From assembly GCF_029873635.1 (NCBI RefSeq), contig NC_080423.1, forward strand, positions 100,874,991-100,938,990: a stretch of 64,000 bases of DNA, written 5' to 3'. Made by a program: the position numbers and the translations under genes. This document shows, in pieces, positions 4,226 to 49,718 of the stretch; position 1 is the first letter of the stretch, and the number at the start of each line of letters is the position of its first letter. The notes below the pieces were generated by a model. It saw nothing but the letters and a program-made list of their open reading frames with translations. It was not told the origin of the DNA and did not search any database. This stretch comes from Malania oleifera (lineage: Eukaryota > Streptophyta > Magnoliopsida > Santalales > Ximeniaceae).

Positions 4226-7200
4226 CCTTCCATTTGTTCAAATAAAACGTCTTCTAATTTTCAATGTGAAAATTGTGAATTTGTAAAACACCAGCGTAAC
4301 TCCTTTCCAAAGTCCACATACAAACCATCCCTTCCATTTACTATGATTCACAATGATTTATGGGGCCCCTCACGCTCTCTTAATCGCACTCATACGAAAT
4401 GGTTTGTTACTTTTATTAATGATCATACTCATGTTTGTTGGGTTACTTGTTGAAAGATAAAACTAAAATCCGTTCTATTTTTGTCAGTTTCTACTCCATG
4501 ATTCAAACAGAATTCCAAACTCATCCAAATTTTACGTACTGATAATGGTATGAAACATTTCAATGATATCTTGGGATTTTGTCTTCAAGAAAATGGAATT
4601 GTTCATCAAAGTTCCTGTGTGGATACTCCTCAACAAAATGGGGTTGTTGGATGTAAAAATAGGCATATACTTGAAGTAGCTCGGGCATTGATGTTCACTA
4701 CAAATATGAAAAAATATTTTTGGGGCGATGCCATTTTAACAACTACACATCTCATTAATTAAATGTTGAGTCGAGTTCTTTCTTTTGCTACTCCTCTCCA
4801 GAAATTCTAGGAATGTTTTCCTAACTCTCGACTCCACTCCAATATTTCTCTGAAAATCTTTGGATGCACTGCATTTGTTCATGTTCATGCTCACAATTGG
4901 GATAAATTGGAACCTCGTGCCATTAAATGCGTCTTTATTGGTTATTCTCCTACTCAGAAAGGTTACAAATGTTATGACCCTGTCACCAAAAAAATGTTTG
5001 TTAGCCTTGATGTCATGTTCTTTGAAACGACTCCTTATTTCCAAAAGCCCTCTCTTCAGGGGGAGAAGTGGAGTGAAGATCGATTCTTTGATTTGTCTAC
5101 TTATGAATCTGTGCTATCTACCGAGTCTCCCATTACATCATTTCCTAACCTGTCATGTGCAAATGATCACTTAAACTCAGGGGGAGATGCAGAATAACAA
5201 AATAATAAGGAAATACTTGTTTACTCAAGAAAGCCAAAAACAAAGAACAAGGAGAATCTTATACCTGAGGCACCAAGAGAGTTGGAATCGGTGATGGCTC
5301 CGAGCAACCATGAGTCCACACCTAATCCTGGTCAGGTAATAAATGGCCATGAGCTTCCTTCTGATAAGTCTGCACCTGATGACGTCAATTTATCCATTGC
5401 AGTAAGAAAACAAACAAGGTTATGTACTCTATATCCCTGGTCAAAATACATGTCTTATAAAAATTTGTCTATAGGGTATCGTGCTTTTACCTCTAACATT
5501 GTCAGGATAAAAATTCCAAAGAATATTTAGGAAACCCTGGAAATTCTTGAATGGAGGGAAGTTGTCATGGAAGAAATGTTGGCCCTGGAAAAAAATGGAA
5601 CTTGGGACGTCACGAATTTGTCGAGAGGAAAGAAGCCAGTAGGCTGAAAATGGGTCGTCACAGTGAAATGTAGAGCTGATGGGATAGTTGAACGATATAA
5701 AGTCAGACTCGTTGCAAAATGGTTTACATAGACCTATGGCATTGATTGCATGGAGACATTTGCACCAGTGGCAAAATTGAATACAATTCGGGTCCTCCTA
5801 TCCTTGCCAGCTAACTTAGATTGGCCACTACAACAACTCGACATTAAAAATGCATTTCTAAATGGTGAGTTAAAAGAAGTCTACATGACGATACCACCAG
5901 GTTTCAGTAAGAAAGGTGAAAAAAACAGAGTATGTAAACTCAAGAAGTCCTTGTATGGACTCAAGCAATCTCCCACAACATGGTTCGACAAATTTGCAAA
6001 AGTGATAAAGAATCAAGGATATCGACAAGGGCAATTGGATCACACTATGTTCTTCCAACAGTTTGAAAGTGGTAAGAAAACAATTATGATAGTGTATGTT
6101 GATGATATAATCCTAACTGGAGATGATATAGTGGAGATGGAAAGATTAAAGAAAGTGCTAACTACTGAATTTGAAGTTAAAGACTTAAGACAAATGTGGT
6201 ACTTCTTGGGAATGGAAGTTGCTAGATCAAAAAAGGGTATTAGTGTCTCTCAGCTAAAGTATATCCTTGATCTCCTAACCAAAATTGGCATTCTTGGATG
6301 CAAACCTAGTGAAACCCCGATTAAAGTCGTAAAGAGGATTGAAGACTGCGGAATACTAGTTGAAAAGGAGAGGTATCAAAGATTGGTTGGTAAACTAATT
6401 TACCTATCGCATACCAAACTCGACATTGCATTTGCCGTAAGTGTGGTAAGTCAACACATGCATTCACCGAAAAAGACTCACCTACATGTAGTGTATAAGA
6501 TCCTCAGGTACCTCAAGGGTTCTCTGGGCAAAGGACTTTTTTCAAGAAATTTGAAAGCAAGGAAGTAGAAATTTTCACATATGCAGATTGGGCAGGATCA
6601 GCGGAAGATAGAAGGTCAACCACCGGATATTGCACCTTTGTATGGAGATTGGTTGGTGAACTAATTTACTTATCGCATACCAAACCCGACATTGCATTTG
6701 CGGTAAGTGTGGTAAGTCAACATATGCATTCACCGAAAAAGACTCACCTAGATGTAGTGTATAAGATCCTCAGGTACCTCAAGGGTTCTCCGAGCAAATG
6801 ATTCTTTTTCAAGAAATGTGAAAGCAAGGAAGTAGATATTTTCACAGATGCGGATTGGGCTGGATCAGCGGAAGATAGAAGGTCAACCACCGAATATTGC
6901 ACCTTTGTATGGGGAAATTTGGTAACTTGGAGGAGCAAAAAATAGAATGTAGTGGCTCAAAGCAGTGTTGAAGCTGAATTCATGGCAGTTGCACAAGGGA
7001 TATGTGAATGACTATAGTTATAGAAACTCTTGGAAGAATTACAAATCCCAGTTAAATTTCCTATCAAACTCTATTGTGACAACAAAGCAGCCATCGGTAT
7101 CTCTCTCAATCCAGTTCAACATGACAGGACTAAGCATGTAGAAGTGGACCGACATTTTATCAAAGAGAAGGTTGAAGAAGGAACCATCCGTACGACTTAT

Positions 7201-15197: not shown

Positions 15198-15690
15198 AAT
15201 GGTCTTATCTACTCAACTAACTAGAGCTAGTGTGCTACTAACTATTGAATTTCAACGTCGTTTTATTAGTAGCTATGAGGTATAGGAAAAAAAAATACAT
15301 ATAGATGAATTAATTTAGAAACTAGTACATATAAATGGTATAGCACAGGAAAACACCTTATCCTATGTGGAAAAGTATAATAGATTAATAATATATTTTT
15401 ACTTAGGCGGGAAAATTTGCTTTTAAAATACAAAAAAAAAAAAGATCTTCTACTTAAAAACAATGAGACATTAGGATGATTGCTTATTCTGATGGCATTA
15501 CACACCCAATTTGTTATTTATTTTCGTAATTTATCAAGTTCTAAAATACATGTTTAAAAAAAATCAATGAAATTTTACAAGGGAAAATTTATGCATTCAA
15601 CCGTGATTAGAAATTGCTCAACTGGAGTAAGATGGAGAAAAATGAAAAGCAACATACATTATGATTGAGACTCATTGAGGACTTGAAGAG
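15198..15690. other. Unassigned AT-rich intergenic DNA
   Basis: Nothing recognisable. Short open frames here are AT-rich and without motifs. Confidence 0.4.
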
Positions 15691-15692
15691 TT

Positions 15693-16253
15693 AATGTGGA
15701 TTGGAAAATTGGAAAGAATATAGCAAATCCATTAGGAGCTATTGGACTCTTCCAAATTAGTCATATATTTTATCATTCATGAAAGCAGAAGAAGATTGGT
15801 TTTGAGAAAATCCATAACTTGATGATAATGGACTGATACCATATAAGTCACTTGAAACTTATGTTCTATATTGCTAGAGAACCTGATCTTTGTCCCTTGG
15901 GGACATTCTAAAAGTTCTGAACTTTTGTATTGGAGGTTTTAGGTTTATATTTTGGGAGGGATAGAAGATAATGTGGATTGGAAAATTGGAAAGAATATAG
16001 AAAATCCATTTGGAGCTATTGGACTCTTCCAAATTAGTCCTATATTTTATCATTCATGAAAGAAGAAGAAGAAGAAGAAGATTGGTTTTGAGAGAATCCA
16101 ACTTGATGATAATGGACTGATACCATATAAGTCACTTGAAACTTATGTTCTATATTGCTAGAGAACCTGATCTTTGTCCCTTGGGGACGTTCTAAAAGTT
16201 CTGAACTTTTGTATTGAAGATTTTAGGTTTATATTTTGGGAGGGATAGAAGAT
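15693..16253. repeat. Tandem duplication, unit about 277 bp
   Basis: AATGTGGATTGGAAAATTGG starts at 15693 and again at 15970, and the two units are nearly identical through GGGAGGGATAGAAGATAA. The second copy differs mainly by an expanded GAA run (about 16060-16080). No coding potential is seen. Confidence 0.85.
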
Positions 16254-16446
16254 AACTGTTCCTAAGTGTCGTGGGTTTAAATCTTGCAATAGAAAACATA
16301 AAGATGGATTTCAAGATGGAGGAGAAGAAGATGGAAGATAACTATTGGAGGTTTTAGGTTTATATTTTGGGAAGGATAGAAGATAACTATTCATAAGTGT
16401 TTTGGGTTCAAGTCTTCCAATACAAAACATGAAGATGGATTTCTAA
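16252..16446. repeat. Second, shorter tandem duplication, unit about 124 bp
   Basis: GATAACTGTTCCTAAGTGT...ATGAAGATGGATTT-type sequence at about 16252-16322 recurs at about 16376-16446. Part of the 277-bp unit's end (TATTGGAGGTTTTAGG) is reused near 16343. It lies a few hundred bases beyond the stop codon of the minus-strand host gene, so it may overlap its 3' UTR or terminator region. Confidence 0.7.
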
Positions 16447-16867: not shown

Positions 16868-19800
16868 TCAATTCTTCTCTTCTGGTTCACGGGCTAAATG
16901 GTTCTCTGGCAGTGCCTTCAAAGCTAGCCTTGTCTTTGCTGCCTTATTGACATTTACATCTTCAGTTCTGTGGCTTACAGTAATCTGCAATTTTTCTTTG
17001 AACATCTTTCTCAGCTGCCTCAGGCTTGTGTCATTCAGTGCCTTCAGCATTGCATCTTCTGCCATGTCCTCGATATTCTTCTTTTTCTCCTTTTTAAGCT
17101 CTACGTTCTTCCTTCCACTCTTGCCAATATTCTCCTTGTTGCCATCCAAAACATGGATCATCTTTTGAGGTGCCTTGCTATCCAAAACATGGATCATCTT
17201 TTGAGGTGCCTTGCTCGAAGATTTCCTGCCACTATTGTCAATGTTCTCCTTGTTGACATCCAAAACATTGTTCATCTTGTTGCCATCCAAAACATGGATC
17301 ATCTTTTGAGGTGCCTTGCTTGAAGATTTCCTGCCACTATTGTCGATGTTCTCCTTGTTGACATCCAAAACATCGTTCATCCTTCGAATTGGTGTCTTGC
17401 TTGAAGATTTCCTCCCACTATTGTCAATGTTCTCCTTATTGTCATCCAAAACATGGAAACTCCTTTGAACTGAAACTGGGGTCTTGCTAACTGATTTCCT
17501 CAGCGTCAAATGGGATGCCAAAGTCGAGAATGGGGTGTCAGCCATGATTACCCCACTGGGAGTTTGATTTCTGGTATCAAGCATTGGATGATTCTCAGTT
17601 CCTATCTCTGAAACCTGGCACAAATTTGATGATAGAGACTGATCGTGAAATAAAGTTTTACCCATGAGTTCACCTTCAGAAAGTTTCTGACAATTAGGAC
17701 TCACTTGCTCTTGTGCATTTGGCAACTCCTCCGACAACGGATGGCATTCATTGGCTGTCATGGCATGTTCTTCTGCCACAAAATGAACACCGGTCCATTC
17801 TTCAGAATTGCCATTCTCTACCTCAGGCAGCGGGTGTTCTCCATGGCGGGGAGCCATGAGATTGTTGAATTCAATGACTTGTCTGGAAAAATCGACTGCA
17901 AATTGTGTTTCTGACTCATCGTTCATCGAATTTTCAGAGTTTGATCCATTGTCAACTGCCAGTTGACCATCCGCAAATACCTCAGTGGCAGTAAACAACC
18001 CAATGAGAGGTTCATATGAATCTTCTTCATAATTCTCAGAGTCGTTGATGTCTAGAATTCCATCTTCTTTTCCGCTGTCCACTTGCTCCAAACGAGACAC
18101 CAGGCCTTCCCAAGTATCTGGAGAAAAACTTGAATCCTTTTGAGTTATTTGTGCATCATCACTATAATTTTCTTGAAATTCAGATGGATTTTCATCTGAT
18201 GCGTTGCCATTGGAGGCAGTAATAGGCTCCCAGACAAGTTCATTCATTTCTTCTTTAAAATTTTCACCTCCAGCAACGTCTAGAATTCCATCTTTTCCAT
18301 TTTCCGGTTTCTCTTTGCAAGACACCTGCTCAGTATCATCTGATGGATCATCATATGGTGAAGCCGTAAAATCCTTTTTGTCTGCTTCTGCATCATTATA
18401 GTTGTAGTTCCCTTCAATAGCGTTGTCAATTTCGAGATAGCAACCTTCTGGAACATTCATGTCAGTGCCTTCACTAACCATATTTTGACATAGGATTTCT
18501 GGATTCTGGTCCTGATCAATGAAGGCTGTCAAATTTGATGAACTGAGGATATCTCCTGTAACGATATCCTGATTGGCATCTAATTCTTTCTTGTTATCAG
18601 ATATTAGGAACCCATCTGAATCCTCAGTGTCAGGCATGGTAGCAGAGACTTCACTATGGCCTACAAACCAGAGAATATTAGAACATGAAACTATGGATCT
18701 ATGAGTATGAACACCAAATGAATCAATCTACGTACACAGTTAATGAAAAGAGAAAGTTGTAAACATGAGACTTACCAATCTCATCTGAGGTTTGAACTGC
18801 TTCACCATCTACTGCCTTCTCCGAGTCTACACCTGGAATGACAAGGCATTCTTCAGGTCTATTGCACGCTTCAGATTTTGTGTGCAGCTCAGCTCCTGCA
18901 TATTTATTGTAAAAGAAAAAGTTAATAGGTTGTATAGAAGATCAAATGAATGGGTCCAAAATTGGAACGATATACTATAAAAACTTACCCTTATTCTCAT
19001 ATTGAGCTTCATCATCTATTACATCTTCCACTTTTTCCTTCAGAACATTGACCCCGTTATAATTACCCTTCTCATTCTCTTGAGCTTCCTCTTTGCAATC
19101 TCTTTCAATCTCTGCTAATGCACTGAGTTTTAGATTTGAAATAATTTCAGAATCATCAATCCTCTCTGACCCCTCTTCTGACGATGTCTTCAAATCAGTA
19201 ACTGTACCATGATTCATGTCAGAATCACCCAACTAATAGCATATTATAAAAACACAAGTAGAAACACGGAGATGTTCATTTGTGCAATTATGCAAACACA
19301 TACCAGACACGCTCTTCACATCTGTTTCTTCTTCGGATAACTCTGTGATCTTTATGACATCTATTTTTCCCTTTTCCTTCGGACTCAACCCGGCCATCTT
19401 CTCCAACAGCCTTGTAGATCGCCGCGTGCTATGCACTCGCTGCACAAAATTCTCCTCCTTCACACTGGTCTCTGCTTTCCGCCGAGTTGAAGCCCCTCTT
19501 CTCCGGGTACTTGAAGCAGTTGGGGTCTCCGGCACCTCCTTCTCTTCCCCTGCTTCTCTGCCTCCCCTGCTGGTTTTGTAACGAGTGCGAGTCATTGGCT
19601 GCTCACTTTCCGGATCTCCTTTCACAGGCTTTCTTCTGGTTGATGTTCGGGGAGGCTCCGGTGATCCAAATCCCATCTTCTCTTGAACTTCCAGGCCCTT
19701 CTCCGAGTCGGGTCTTGTGAAATCTTCTAGTCCTTCAACCTGGAACACCGTGATTTCAATGAAATTAAATCAAGATACATAAAAAGAAAGGAAAAATACA

Positions 19801-19943
19801 TGATTTTTCAAATGTGAACGGGTGATTACGATTTGCAGAGCTTTGAGGGCATCGGCCATGGCGACATTGGTCATGTTGGCTGCGATCTTGTTCTTCTTGC
19901 AGAGGGCTTGGAGCTCTCTCCTGCTGAGGCTATGAAAATCCAT
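16868..19943 (-). CDS. KEN-box-rich acidic nuclear protein, putative mitotic factor (5 exons, 891 aa)
   Basis: Exons are 19830-19943, 19304-19739, 18989-19201, 18776-18895 and 16868-18660. All introns are GT-AG and the phases sum to 892 codons. Residues 1-38 begin MDFHSLSRRELQALCKKN and resemble a short SAP-like helical motif. Residues 69-148 hold basic S/T-R-R clusters (STRRK, STRRRGASTRRK, STRRSTR). A long acidic low-complexity middle follows. Residues 695-813 are an imperfect repeat with KEN boxes at 703, 730, 765 and 803 plus a full CDK site (TPIR at 717). A charged helical tail comes last. From memory, Arabidopsis has unnamed acidic proteins with the same N-terminus; I know no settled function. 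KEN boxes are APC/C degrons in known cell-cycle proteins. With the MSA element upstream this suggests a G2/M protein, by inference. The exon 3 acceptor (19201 rather than 19232) was chosen because only it keeps frame. Confidence 0.9.
17105..17455 (-). repeat. Coding tandem repeat encoding the KEN-box array
   Basis: Within the last exon, a unit coding roughly VLDxNKENIDNSGRKSSSK recurs four times, in two places with an added KAPQKMIHVLD piece. A 35-bp stretch containing AACATGGATCATCTTTTGAG occurs twice in direct succession near 17153-17215 and again near 17290. The nucleotide similarity is high, so the expansion looks recent. Confidence 0.85.
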
Positions 19944-20116
19944 TGCTATGAAGGGAGATCTTGTTGTCTGATGGAGGAAGGATGTTGGTGTTAAGAGGAC
20001 GATTGGAGCGGCCGTAAAGAGATAATACGAAGATATGTCATTCGGACAAGGATGCGACGATGAATGAAATTTATACAGGATATCAGAAGAGACGTTAAGG
20101 AAACCCTAATGAAATG

Positions 20117-20127
20117 TGACCGTTGGA
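20117..20127 (-). promoter_or_regulatory. MSA (mitosis-specific activator) element
   Basis: On the minus strand, in the gene's own direction, the sequence is TCCAACGGTCA. This matches every position of the MSA consensus YCYAACGGYYA bound by three-repeat MYB (MYB3R) factors at plant G2/M promoters. It lies 174-184 bp upstream of the ATG at 19943. I found only one clear copy. Confidence 0.7.
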
Positions 20128-23350: not shown

Positions 23351-26300
23351 CCTCTCATTGAGATGAAGCCAACGGTGGTAACCGGGGCTCAAACAGAGCT
23401 CAGACGACAACGCACGTGCCTGCATGCGCCACCGACAGTCGGACGACACTGCCACGCGCCCCCACACGCCAACACATGCCCCCGAAGTTCGGTGAGTACA
23501 CGCACGCGTCCGCACGCACTGACGAATCCCTGTGAGCTGAAGGAAGAAGACGACGTGACGTTAGTGCCATGTCACCTGTCCACGTCAGTGTTGAGTTAGA
23601 GCCCCATCAGTATCCACGTTAGGTCTGTTAGTGCCATGTTAGCCTCGGGTCCATGGTCACGTTTGTGCTGATTTAGCAAGCCACGCTAGTAGGGACCCAT
23701 GCCACATCAATAGTTGGTCCACAGTGGGCCCCATAGGACATGTAAGTAGATGGCCCCCACAGTGCCGTGTTAGCAAACGACGTTAGTAATGGCATCAGTG
23801 ACTGTTAACAACGTCAGGTATATTCTGTTAATGGAGGGAATATTCCATTAAAGTTGATCGAAGTTTGACCAAGTTTGACTAGGCTTTTCAAAGCCATTTT
23901 AGGTCCGTTTTTCAAACGACTTGAACCATTTCTAAGGTTTTTGGCCATTTTGGATCCAAATGTGCTGTCAGTTTGAGCTAATTGTATCACTAGATTAGTG
24001 AATTAAGATGTCAAATAAAAAGAGCTCACAGATCGAGATGTTTGACTACACCAACTTCAGTTTATGAAAAATGTAGATTGAGGACTACTTGTTTGGTAAG
24101 GAGTTGCATTTACCATTAAAGGAGAAGTCATAATCCATGAAAGAAAGTGAGTGGGAGTTACTTGACTGAAAAGCTCTCAGAGCTATCAGAAAAACATTGG
24201 CAAAGTTTGTTGCCTTCAATATTAAGCACTTGACAACCACCAAGTCCCTTATGGATGCGCTATCCAATATGTACGAGCAACCATCAGTCACGAATAAAGT
24301 ACACTTGATGAAAAGATTGTTTACCATGAATATGTCTGCAGGTGAAAGTTTTAACAAATACCTGAATAATTTCAACTCGCATTTAGATCAACTCGCCTCC
24401 GTTAGAATTACATTTGACAGTGAGATCCATGCCCTACTGATTCTTAGTCAGGTGCCTGAGGGTTGGAAAGGTATTGTTATTGTGATCAGTAGCTTCACAG
24501 GAAAATCAAAGATGAAGTATGACAAGGTCATCAACATGATTTTGACGAAAGAGATCATAATGCAGTTGAACAATGCCTCCACTTCAAGTTTAGCCTTGAA
24601 TGTGGAAAGCCAAGGAAAAGGAAGTGGGCATGGATGATCAAACAATCACAAAAAATCTAGGACCTGGCCATCTAGATCTAGAAATCCCAGAGGTTTCCAG
24701 AGCACAAAGAACGTTGAGTGCTGGAATTGTGGAAAGGCTAGACATTTCAGCAACTAGTGCAAAGGTTCGAGAAAGGAATCTAAGGTGACGACGGAAACAA
24801 ATATCGCCTCCTTCTCAGGATAAAAAGATGCACTAATATGTTCTTTGGATAGCAAACATGAGTCTTGGGTCTTAGACTCCAGAGCCTCATTTCATGTCAC
24901 TTGTAGCAGAGATAGCCTAGAGGAGTACACACTAGGTAATTTTGGCAAGGTGTACCTTGGCAGCGATCATTCTTGCGACATAGTTGGCAAGAGAGTTGTG
25001 AAGATCAAGATAAATGAGTCAGTATGGAAGCAGAAGGATGTCATATATATTCTAGACCTGAGAAAAAAATTTGATCTCAGTTGGTCAACTGGCAAATGAA
25101 GGATACACGACGACATTTATTGGTGATGAATTGAAGGTTTCAAAGTGTGTACTAATGATTGCACGAGGTAAGAAAAACGGAACACTTTATCTAACCTCTA
25201 ATGCTTCTATGTCTATTTCAGTTACTGTAGGAAATGACGATAGCAACATCTAGCACCAACGATTCGGTCACATGAGCGAGAAAGGACTCAGGGTGATGCA
25301 CTTAAAGGGACAATTGAGTGGTCTACGGTCGGTCAAGATTGACATGTGGGAGGATTGCATATTCGGGAAATAAAAGAGGGTTAGTTTCTAGACAAACACC
25401 CGTACCCTAAAGAAGGAGAGACTAGAACTAGTCCACTCAGATGTATGGGGACCAACGCCCGTATCATCCATAGGCAGAAGGAATTACCTCGTCACATTCA
25501 TTGACGATCATTTTCAGAAGGTATGAGTTTACTTTCTAAAGTATAAGTCGGAAGTCTTTGATGCTTTCAGGGTATGGAAAGCTATGGTTGAAAATGAAAC
25601 TGGTTTGAGAATCAAAAAGTTGAGAATATACAATGGTGGTGAGTATGAAGACACTAGGTTCAAGAAATTTTGCTATAAGCACGGTATCAAGATGGAAAAA
25701 ACTGTGTCAGGTATGCCTCAACACAACGGCGTAGCTGAGCGGATGAACCGAACGTTATCTGAAAGAGTCAGAAGCATATGTATAGAGTTAGACTTACCAT
25801 TGCAGTTCTGGGTAGAAGCAGTTGGCACAACAACGTACTTAATTAACAGGGGTCCATCAATACCATTGGACCACCGTATACTAGAAGAGGTATGGAGCGA
25901 AAAAGAGATGAGACTTTCACATTTGAAAGTTTTTGGTTGTGTTGCATATGTATATATTAGTGACCATGTCAGAAACAAGCTTTGCAATGTCCCTCAATTT
26001 CTTAACATAAAATATCACATAATAAATAAAATGGTCAACCCGAACTCGTGGGTAGCGGGGACACCTGTCAAACACAGCGGAAAACCTAACAGCAGTAAAC
26101 ATAAAATCTCAAACATCCAATCATAAAACATAATACCAGAGCATTCTATACATCCTCACATACATTAAAATATCTCTAGGGTCAAACACAAAATAACTCT
26201 GATGCTATTACAAAATCTTACCCTTCTCACAGGATAATCTCACTAGCTCAACAGCGGCCTTGACCCGCTGGTCTCTCAGGGACTCCTGAAAAATTAATTA

Positions 26301-47600: not shown

Positions 47601-49718
47601 GTGTTGATGTAGCGAGGGAGAGTGATAGCCTATGCCTCACGACAGTAGAAAGAATATGAGAAAAACTACCCTACCCATGATTTGGAGTTGGCGGCGGTTG
47701 TTTATGCGTTGAAGATTTGGAGGCACTATCTATATGGGGATAGGTGTGAGATATTTACTAACCATAAGAGGTTAAAGTATTTCTTCATGCAGAAGGAATT
47801 GAATATAAGGCAGAAGAGATGGCTGGAGCTAATAAAGGATTACGACTGCACTATCAGCTACCACCCAGGAAAGGCTAATGTGGTCGCTAATGCTTTGAGC
47901 TGGAAATCAGTGGATTCATCTGTATTTGCAGTGGAGATTCAGCATCGGATCCAGATAGATCTGGAGAGGCTCGGTGTGGAGCTGGTAGAGGGTGATCACT
48001 AGGCGTTCATTGCTGACTTGGTTTTGCAGCCGACTCTACATGAGAGGATTAAAGCAGCTTAGAGGAATGACGTAGAACTAGTAGAGCTTATGGGAAAGGT
48101 ACAGGATGGTCAGGAACCAGAGTTCAGCATTTCAGATGATTGAGCCTTGAGGTTCCGTACCAGGTTATGCGTTTTTGCCGATCATGAGATCAAGAGGGTC
48201 ATTCTGGAGGAAGCGTATAAGTCCCTATATACTGTACATCCAGGTAGCACTAAAATGTACAGGGATCTTCGAGAGTCCTTCTGGTGGAGAAATATGAAGA
48301 GGGAGATAGCCCAGTATATGGATCAGTGTTTGACATGCCAACAAGTGAAGACTGAGCACCAGAGACCGACGGGATCATTGCAGCTACTTCACATTCCTGA
48401 GTGGAAGTGGGAGCATATAGTGATGGATTTCGTCTCAGGATTATCGCCGGCATTGCATGGACAGGATGCTATTTGGGTAGTGGTGGATCGACTGATGAAG
48501 ATTGTCCACTTTTTTCCAATCAGAGTTAGCTACTTCATGGACAGCTTGGCCGAGTTATACATCCAGGAGATAGTTAGGCTCCACGGCGTACGAGTGTCCA
48601 TAATTTCAAATAGAGACCCACGGTTCACATCTCGTTTTTGGAAGAGTTTGCAAGGGGCCATGGGTTCTCAGTTGTCGTTCAGCACAGTTTTTCATCCTTA
48701 GACAGATGGACAGACGGAGAGAACGATACAAATTCTGAAGGATATGCTGTGAGCATGTGTGTTGGACGTTGGAGGTTGTTGGATGCAGTATCTGCCACTG
48801 GTTGGGTTTGCGTATAACAACAGCTACCGGGCCAGCATTGGGATGACACTATATGAGGCACTTTACGGCAGGAGGTGCCGATCCCCATTATACTGGGATG
48901 AGGTTGGAGAGAGACAGGTATTGGGGCCAGAGCTGATATAGCAGACTCATCAGAGACAGGATCAGGATAGCGCAGAGCCGGCATAAGAGTTATGCTGATA
49001 CTCGTCGGTGAGAATTGGAGTTTGATACAGGAGATCACGTATTCTTGAAAGTGGCACCCCTGAAAGGTGTTATGAGATTCGGGAGGAAGGGTAAGCTGAG
49101 CCCTAGGTATATTGGACCATTCGAGATTCTTAAGAAAGTGGGTCCAATTGCCTATCGTTTGGCATTACCACTGGTCCTATCTAGGATCCATGACGTATTC
49201 CACATTTATATGCTGAGGAAATACGTCCTAGACCCCTCCTATGTGATCAGATATGAAGCACTGGAGTTGGGTGATACTTTAGCTTATGAGGAAGTGCCAG
49301 TGCAGATTCTTTATTGGAAGGAATAGGAGCTACGCACAAAGAAGATTCCACTGGTGAAAGTTTTGTGGCGCAATCATGCCATTGAGGAGGCTTCCTAGGA
49401 ACTAGAGGATCAGATGGATTAGAGATATCCACACTTATTCAATGGAGTTTAGAGTTGAGCCAGTCAGAGTAAAAAGAATAATATTGTGTAGTTTTTATTT
49501 GTATAGTGTAACATAGGACAGATAGGGTTTTTAATTTTGAAATATGAATGTCCTTGAGAGAATTTTGGAAAAGTTGTAATCTCTCAGAACCCTCATTGTA
49601 ACAACGGTATTCCTCCGCCATAAGTGATGGTAGTTAATAAAAATTGGAAGTATTTTCGCTAAGGAAGGGAAACAGGGGAATAAGAAATTTTGAGGACGAA
49701 ATTTTTATGAGGGGAGAA

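Follow-up and report, generated by a model that had tools for sequence, protein, structure and literature searches.

Organization of the locus

The window, that is, the whole 64-kb stretch of DNA analysed, carries on its minus strand a gene that was rebuilt as five exons and four introns, all of them GT-AG, and that encodes an uninterrupted protein of 891 aa (Table 1). Besides the reading frames of this gene, four ORFs were scanned, one of which encodes a cytochrome P450, and the other three are pieces of retroelements. Past the 3' end of the gene, at about 15690-16255, two long and near-identical direct copies were noticed by eye. On the 5' side, inspection by eye also pointed to an ATG at 20041 (-98), which could open an upstream ORF of 16 codons ending before the main start; this ORF is uncertain, as the position may be that of the transcription start.

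Table 1. Coordinates of the features discussed, numbered along the window; negative numbers give the distance from the ATG.
Feature	Position	Strand	Remarks
Exon 1	19830..19943	-	38-aa SAP-like module; phase-0 intron directly 3'
Exon 2	19304..19739	-	TRR-rich stretch
Exon 3	18989..19201	-	acidic
Exon 4	18776..18895	-	acidic
Exon 5	16868..18660	-	acidic middle, KEN repeat array, basic tail; stop included
RRSTRLLEK	19398..19424	-	begins at residue 144; RRSKRNLEK in the C8 paralogue
KEN 1	17429..17437	-	residue 703
KEN 2	17348..17356	-	residue 730
KEN 3	17243..17251	-	residue 765
KEN 4	17129..17137	-	residue 803
Tandem repeat array with KEN boxes	17139..17454	-	overlapping rows with periods of 27, 36, 81 and 105 bp
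TPIR, CDK-type site	17384..17395	-	residue 717; sole [ST]P.[KR] in the protein
D-box-like RLALKALPEN	16901..16930	-	residue 872; matches RQALKDLQAN at the C8 C-terminus
MSA element TCCAACGGTCA	20117..20127	-	-184
TATA-like TATAAAT	20069..20075	-	-132
Telo-box AAACCCTA	20101..20108	+	-165; antisense to the gene
Two adjoining TTCAAA	20143..20154	.	-211 and -205; CHR-like TTYGAA on the opposite strand
Single-exon cytochrome P450 ORF	36316-37860		PF00067, E = 5.5e-91
Retroelement fragment, RVT_2	5732-6565
Retroelement fragment, SH3_retrovirus and rve_3	25527-26123
Retroelement fragment, Integrase_H2C2	48144-48698

The predicted protein

The net charge of the protein per 100 residues is +4 and then -1 at the N-terminal end; the middle of the protein is negative and its tail is positive. 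At full length it matched no Pfam family, the only entry returned being DUF6889 at E = 1.6, and the sub-cut-off matches of its pieces (Flexi_CP_N, DUF6889, FAM177, Peptidase_M15_3, Chromo_shadow, LMBR1, Abhydrolase_8 and DUF5580_M) were set aside as chance. A sequence search of the PDB with the whole protein gave a single chance-level match (LytB, E = 0.39), and the first 98 residues, compared with viral contigs, gave eight pattern-matching stretches and no relative. The last 95 residues, modelled by AlphaFold2 from the single sequence, came out mostly as one helix (pLDDT 74, pTM 0.33), which is not informative. In the literature, approached through motif names and through Arabidopsis identifiers with no shown link to the window gene, nothing on this family or an assigned function for it appeared among the matches listed; this is weak evidence of absence, there being no family name by which to search.

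When the window protein was compared with the translated genome (E up to 1), it matched its own five exons and one further place, on contig C8 (E = 1.1e-4), from which the reverse search reached the window gene at E = 5.0e-8. The C8 paralogue (G000:C8 from 15503931, L015) was modelled as 10 exons encoding 2,052 aa. Its 38-aa first exon is homologous to that of the window gene (64% over 36 aa, with none of 20,000 shuffles as good), and in both genes this exon is followed by a phase-0 intron at the same position. The two proteins also have in common the motif RRSxRxLEK, a pattern that occurred in none of 3,000 shuffles of C8, and a similar course of charge, C8 having +2 to +10 per 100 residues over the first 500, then a negative middle and a positive tail. 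The paralogues share exon 1, its intron, RRSxRxLEK, the acidic middle and the basic tail, to which a KEN in the tail and the C-terminal pattern RxxLxxLxxN are to be added. C8 differs from the window gene in its much longer middle, in having a single tail KEN and in lacking the repeat.

The C8 module matched Pfam SAP (PF02037) at E = 0.0015, with 18.6 of the 23.9 bits of the cut-off, and SAP_new25 at E = 0.0055. A third and weaker relative, found on contig C3 (E = 0.37 in the search from C8), has a module that matched PF02037 at E = 0.0031 (17.5 bits) and SAP_new25 at E = 0.014. The module of the window gene matched SAP_new25 at E = 0.12 and had no PF02037 match, while the unrelated coat-protein family Flexi_CP_N scored slightly better (E = 0.089). 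Because all of these matches lie under the curated Pfam cut-offs, the module is called here SAP-like and not SAP. In the alignment of the three modules D, F, S, R, ELQ, LCKK and AN are constant, and none of 20,000 shuffles equalled the window-C3 alignment or the C8-C3 alignment. The C3 gene (L039:1471-1611 and L041) thereby has an exon for a module close in sequence to that of the window gene, and a still weaker match was seen on contig C12 (L040, E = 3.3). AlphaFold2, run without an alignment on the 38-aa N-terminus, predicted one long helix (pLDDT 82, pTM 0.40) and no helix-loop-helix; this model is not informative and counts neither for nor against a SAP fold. A PDB search with the two-row profile of the N-terminus gave no match. 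The module may resemble the SAP of NuSAP1 itself.

The MSA element and its genomic context

The sequence-only reading of this locus had reported a perfect-consensus MSA element about 180 bp before the ATG, and TCCAACGGTCA is indeed found at -184. It is the sole MSA of the 64-kb window, by the exact as well as by the degenerate search. According to a Markov model of the window, 500 bp of both strands should contain 0.0013 degenerate and 0.00009 exact elements; taken with the genome-wide count given below, this puts the chance of meeting one in any single stretch of 500 bp at about 0.001 or lower. The starts of the element and of the TATA-like box downstream of it are 52 bp apart, and the 457 bp before the ATG are unique in the genome at E <= 0.001, in a search that skips very common words. 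MSA elements are described in the part of PMC10905365 available as lying mostly near the transcription start, and their number and orientation differ between MYB3R-regulated genes.

Two other promoter words were noted. On the opposite strand lies a telo-box, AAACCCTA. Further upstream are the two adjoining TTCAAA words, which are CHR-like. At this pair the 13-mer ATTCAAATTCAAA, a low-complexity word, is common to the upstream regions of the window gene and C8; the pair is weak evidence, since TTCAAA is met with often in the window, at 2.0 per kb.

Across the 1.494-Gb genome the exact MSA 11-mer occurs 1,251 times, as against 160 times for the reversed control pattern. Among the first 8 of the 1,251 matches, which were inspected, six have flanks in common with another of the eight, and they form two repeat-like groups (L002, L003, L006 and L007; L005 and L008). 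Some of the repeat-borne 11-mers have TATA-like words shortly downstream, and dispersed repeats of this genome may carry promoters of the G2/M type.

The element was calibrated on the cyclins of the same genome. The 22 Cyclin_C matches were reduced to 17 loci by merging neighbours, about 6 kb before each was taken, and types (from short translations) and starts were assigned by eye, giving 9 B-type loci and 8 others. In four of the nine B-type loci an MSA, degenerate or exact, precedes the likely start by 210-351 bp, and two of these four (L020 and L022) have an exact 11-mer identical to that of the window gene; a fifth B-type match (L024) is apparently inside the gene and was left out of the promoter count. 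The stretches taken before the other cyclin loci gave 0 of 8, a count in which distant promoters could be missed. By eye, two or three MSA cores were counted within 120 bp in these four cyclin promoters, as against one in the promoter of the window gene.

Upstream of the C8 paralogue the picture is different. No MSA was found in the 1,431 bp that precede its ATG, where the nearest approach is a single reversed core, CCGTT, at -44, and where there are also an E2F-like GCGGGAAA and several words of CHR-like type, TTCAAA or TTTGAA. C8, the sole relative modelled, has a KEN motif and no MSA in this stretch. In Arabidopsis, E2Fs and MYB3Rs are described as binding common cell-cycle genes and as regulating those that have their own motif (PMC10477330, from the part available).

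These observations could be taken to mean that the MSA is incidental, and that the gene, with its telo-box promoter, encodes a general proliferation or housekeeping nuclear protein whose paralogue is driven by E2F- and CHR-like words instead of an MSA. The telo-box at -165, the promoter words of C8 and the occurrence of the exact MSA in repeats would fit such an explanation. It is nevertheless considered improbable, given that the element is so rarely expected by chance and that it adjoins a TATA-like box in DNA that is unique in the genome. As judged from the sequence, the claim of G2/M transcription through the MSA is well supported, the element being improbable by chance, promoter-proximal and located in single-copy DNA.

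KEN boxes, the tandem repeat and the C-terminal motif

All four KEN boxes previously assigned to residues 703, 730, 765 and 803 are present. They lie in a tandem DNA repeat, the rows of which have 83-97% matches, and for this reason the idea of four independent degrons was ruled out: one unit was copied by the repeat. Identity between units 2 and 3 reaches 96% across 26 codons, so the last duplication was probably recent. A partial extra copy has KMN instead of KEN. The 19-codon core of units 1 and 2 has three synonymous changes at about 10 sites and two replacement changes at about 47, a pattern that is mildly conservative, although the numbers are small. The four copies come from local repeat expansion, and they might raise avidity rather than add function.

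The chance occurrence of the motifs was estimated from 20,000 shuffles of the whole window protein, which is rich in K, E and N. At least one KEN was present in 46% of the shuffles and at least four in 0.34%; the latter figure is not applicable here because the KENs are copies of one unit. The CDK consensus site that had been claimed at residue 717 exists and is the only one of its kind in the protein, but at least one [ST]P.[KR] occurred in 50% of the shuffles, and the site was dismissed as evidence. In the part of PMC5717348 available, the KEN consensus is given as [DNE]KENxxP, usually alongside a D box, and the D box as RxxLx[DE]-hydrophobic. All four KENs of the window protein have an N directly before them and an acidic residue close upstream; unlike the consensus, none has a proline in the residues shortly after.

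A D-box-like motif of the form RxxLxxLxxN, which had been overlooked, lies close to the C-terminus of the window protein. In the C8 tail a KEN begins 32 residues from the end and is followed by TP, and the protein terminates in RQALKDLQAN; a second KEN lies at residue 38. Both RLALKALPEN and RQALKDLQAN are D-box-like with the N at position 10, not 9. When the last 60 residues were shuffled, the pattern occurred in 2.0% (window) and 0.4% (C8) of the cases, as against 8.7% and 16.9% when the whole proteins were shuffled. Likewise, at least one KEN was found in 60% of the whole-protein shuffles of C8 and in 1.2% of those of its 60-aa tail. Aligned over their full length, the two tails show no significant similarity (P = 0.24), and in a MAFFT alignment the KENs of the window protein and C8 are not brought together.

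Two explanations of the tail have to be weighed. One accepts the G2/M transcription as real and regards the KENs as the by-product of a minisatellite in a tail rich in K, E and N, so that they would not be degrons and the protein would be stable or regulated otherwise. That a single KEN is at chance level for the composition of either protein speaks for it, as do the origin of the copies in a tandem repeat with two nearly identical units and the KMN of the partial copy. Against it stands the matching tail of C8, which has a KEN and a D-box-like end without any repeat and in which a KEN is rare among the tail shuffles; the mildly conservative pattern of changes in the repeat core points the same way, on small numbers. 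On balance, this explanation would seem somewhat unlikely. The other explanation is destruction by the APC/C, as had been claimed. It is plausible, though not on the original argument: the array, made of repeat copies, and the CDK site, at chance level, lend it no support, and what does speak for degrons at the level of sequence is that the paralogue combines a KEN and a D-box-like end in its own basic tail, which matches that of the window protein.

Proposed function

The most economical reading of the locus combines MYB3R-driven synthesis, chromatin association and removal by the APC/C, and we infer every functional step of it, as well as the disorder of the protein; what is shown is the gene with its motifs, the paralogue and the layout common to the two. 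The window gene would encode a G2/M-expressed, SAP-like chromatin protein that is cleared by the APC/C and has a NuSAP1-like layout, a reading to which we assign a probability of about 0.55. MYB3R factors would switch the gene on in G2/M via the MSA element, giving a nuclear protein predicted to be largely unstructured. The SAP-like N-terminal module, together with the adjoining arginine-rich stretch, would hold this protein on DNA or chromatin, and partners may bind to the long acidic middle. On exit from mitosis, the APC/C with Cdh1/CCS52 would recognize the KEN and the D-box-like C-terminal motif, leading to destruction, and the protein would be present mainly in mitosis.

A bolder proposal is that the window gene represents a plant family that has gone unrecognised, with two and perhaps three members in this genome. 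Its products would be mitotic chromosome proteins of SAP-like type with a NuSAP1-like role, which would be present mainly in mitosis, link chromatin to spindle microtubules and be cleared through KEN and D-box motifs. As it stands, this proposal is speculative and quite unlikely. If it were true, a family that is unassigned in Pfam would join the plant mitotic chromosome proteins, with predicted timing of both synthesis and destruction, and the repeat array would be an evolutionary dial for the speed of destruction. Plant spindles are built without centrosomes, and a chromatin-bound protein confined to mitosis would therefore be a promising candidate for a component specific to plants. With the natural KEN repeat, the number of degron copies could also be tested against the timing of destruction.

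Comparison with NuSAP1 and B-type cyclins

Animal NUSAP1 is described as having an N-terminal SAP, a charged domain and a KEN nearer the C-terminus, phosphorylation by CDK1 and degradation by APC/C-Cdh1 (PMC12173916 and PMC10650578, from the parts available). On that description, the window gene resembles it in the SAP-like N-terminus, the charged linker, the KEN towards the C-terminus and the predicted presence in mitosis, and differs from it in the missing PF16006 match, the long acidic middle and the repeated KEN. A genome search with PF16006 (NUSAP) gave nothing at the window gene or C8, and two sub-cut-off matches elsewhere (E = 0.33 and 0.89). Membership in NuSAP by Pfam was consequently dismissed, and the window gene is not filed under NuSAP because the NUSAP model fails to match it.

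A special case of the preferred reading, that of a SAP-like chromatin protein made in G2/M and cleared by the APC/C, would make the gene the plant counterpart of NuSAP1 by descent, with SAP, charged linker, CDK sites, KEN and contact with microtubules. The order of the parts is that described for NUSAP1 in the same two sources, and exon 1 encodes a SAP-like module. Against this, both SAP domains and KEN boxes are common parts, and PF16006 recognizes neither paralogue. This special case is considered very unlikely.

The second comparison is with the B-type cyclins and other MSA-driven plant mitotic proteins degraded by the APC/C. The window gene differs from the B-type cyclins in lacking a cyclin box, in the KEN type of its motifs, in the C-terminal position of these motifs and in its single MSA core; what it has in common with this group is an MSA near the start and degron-like motifs in the product.
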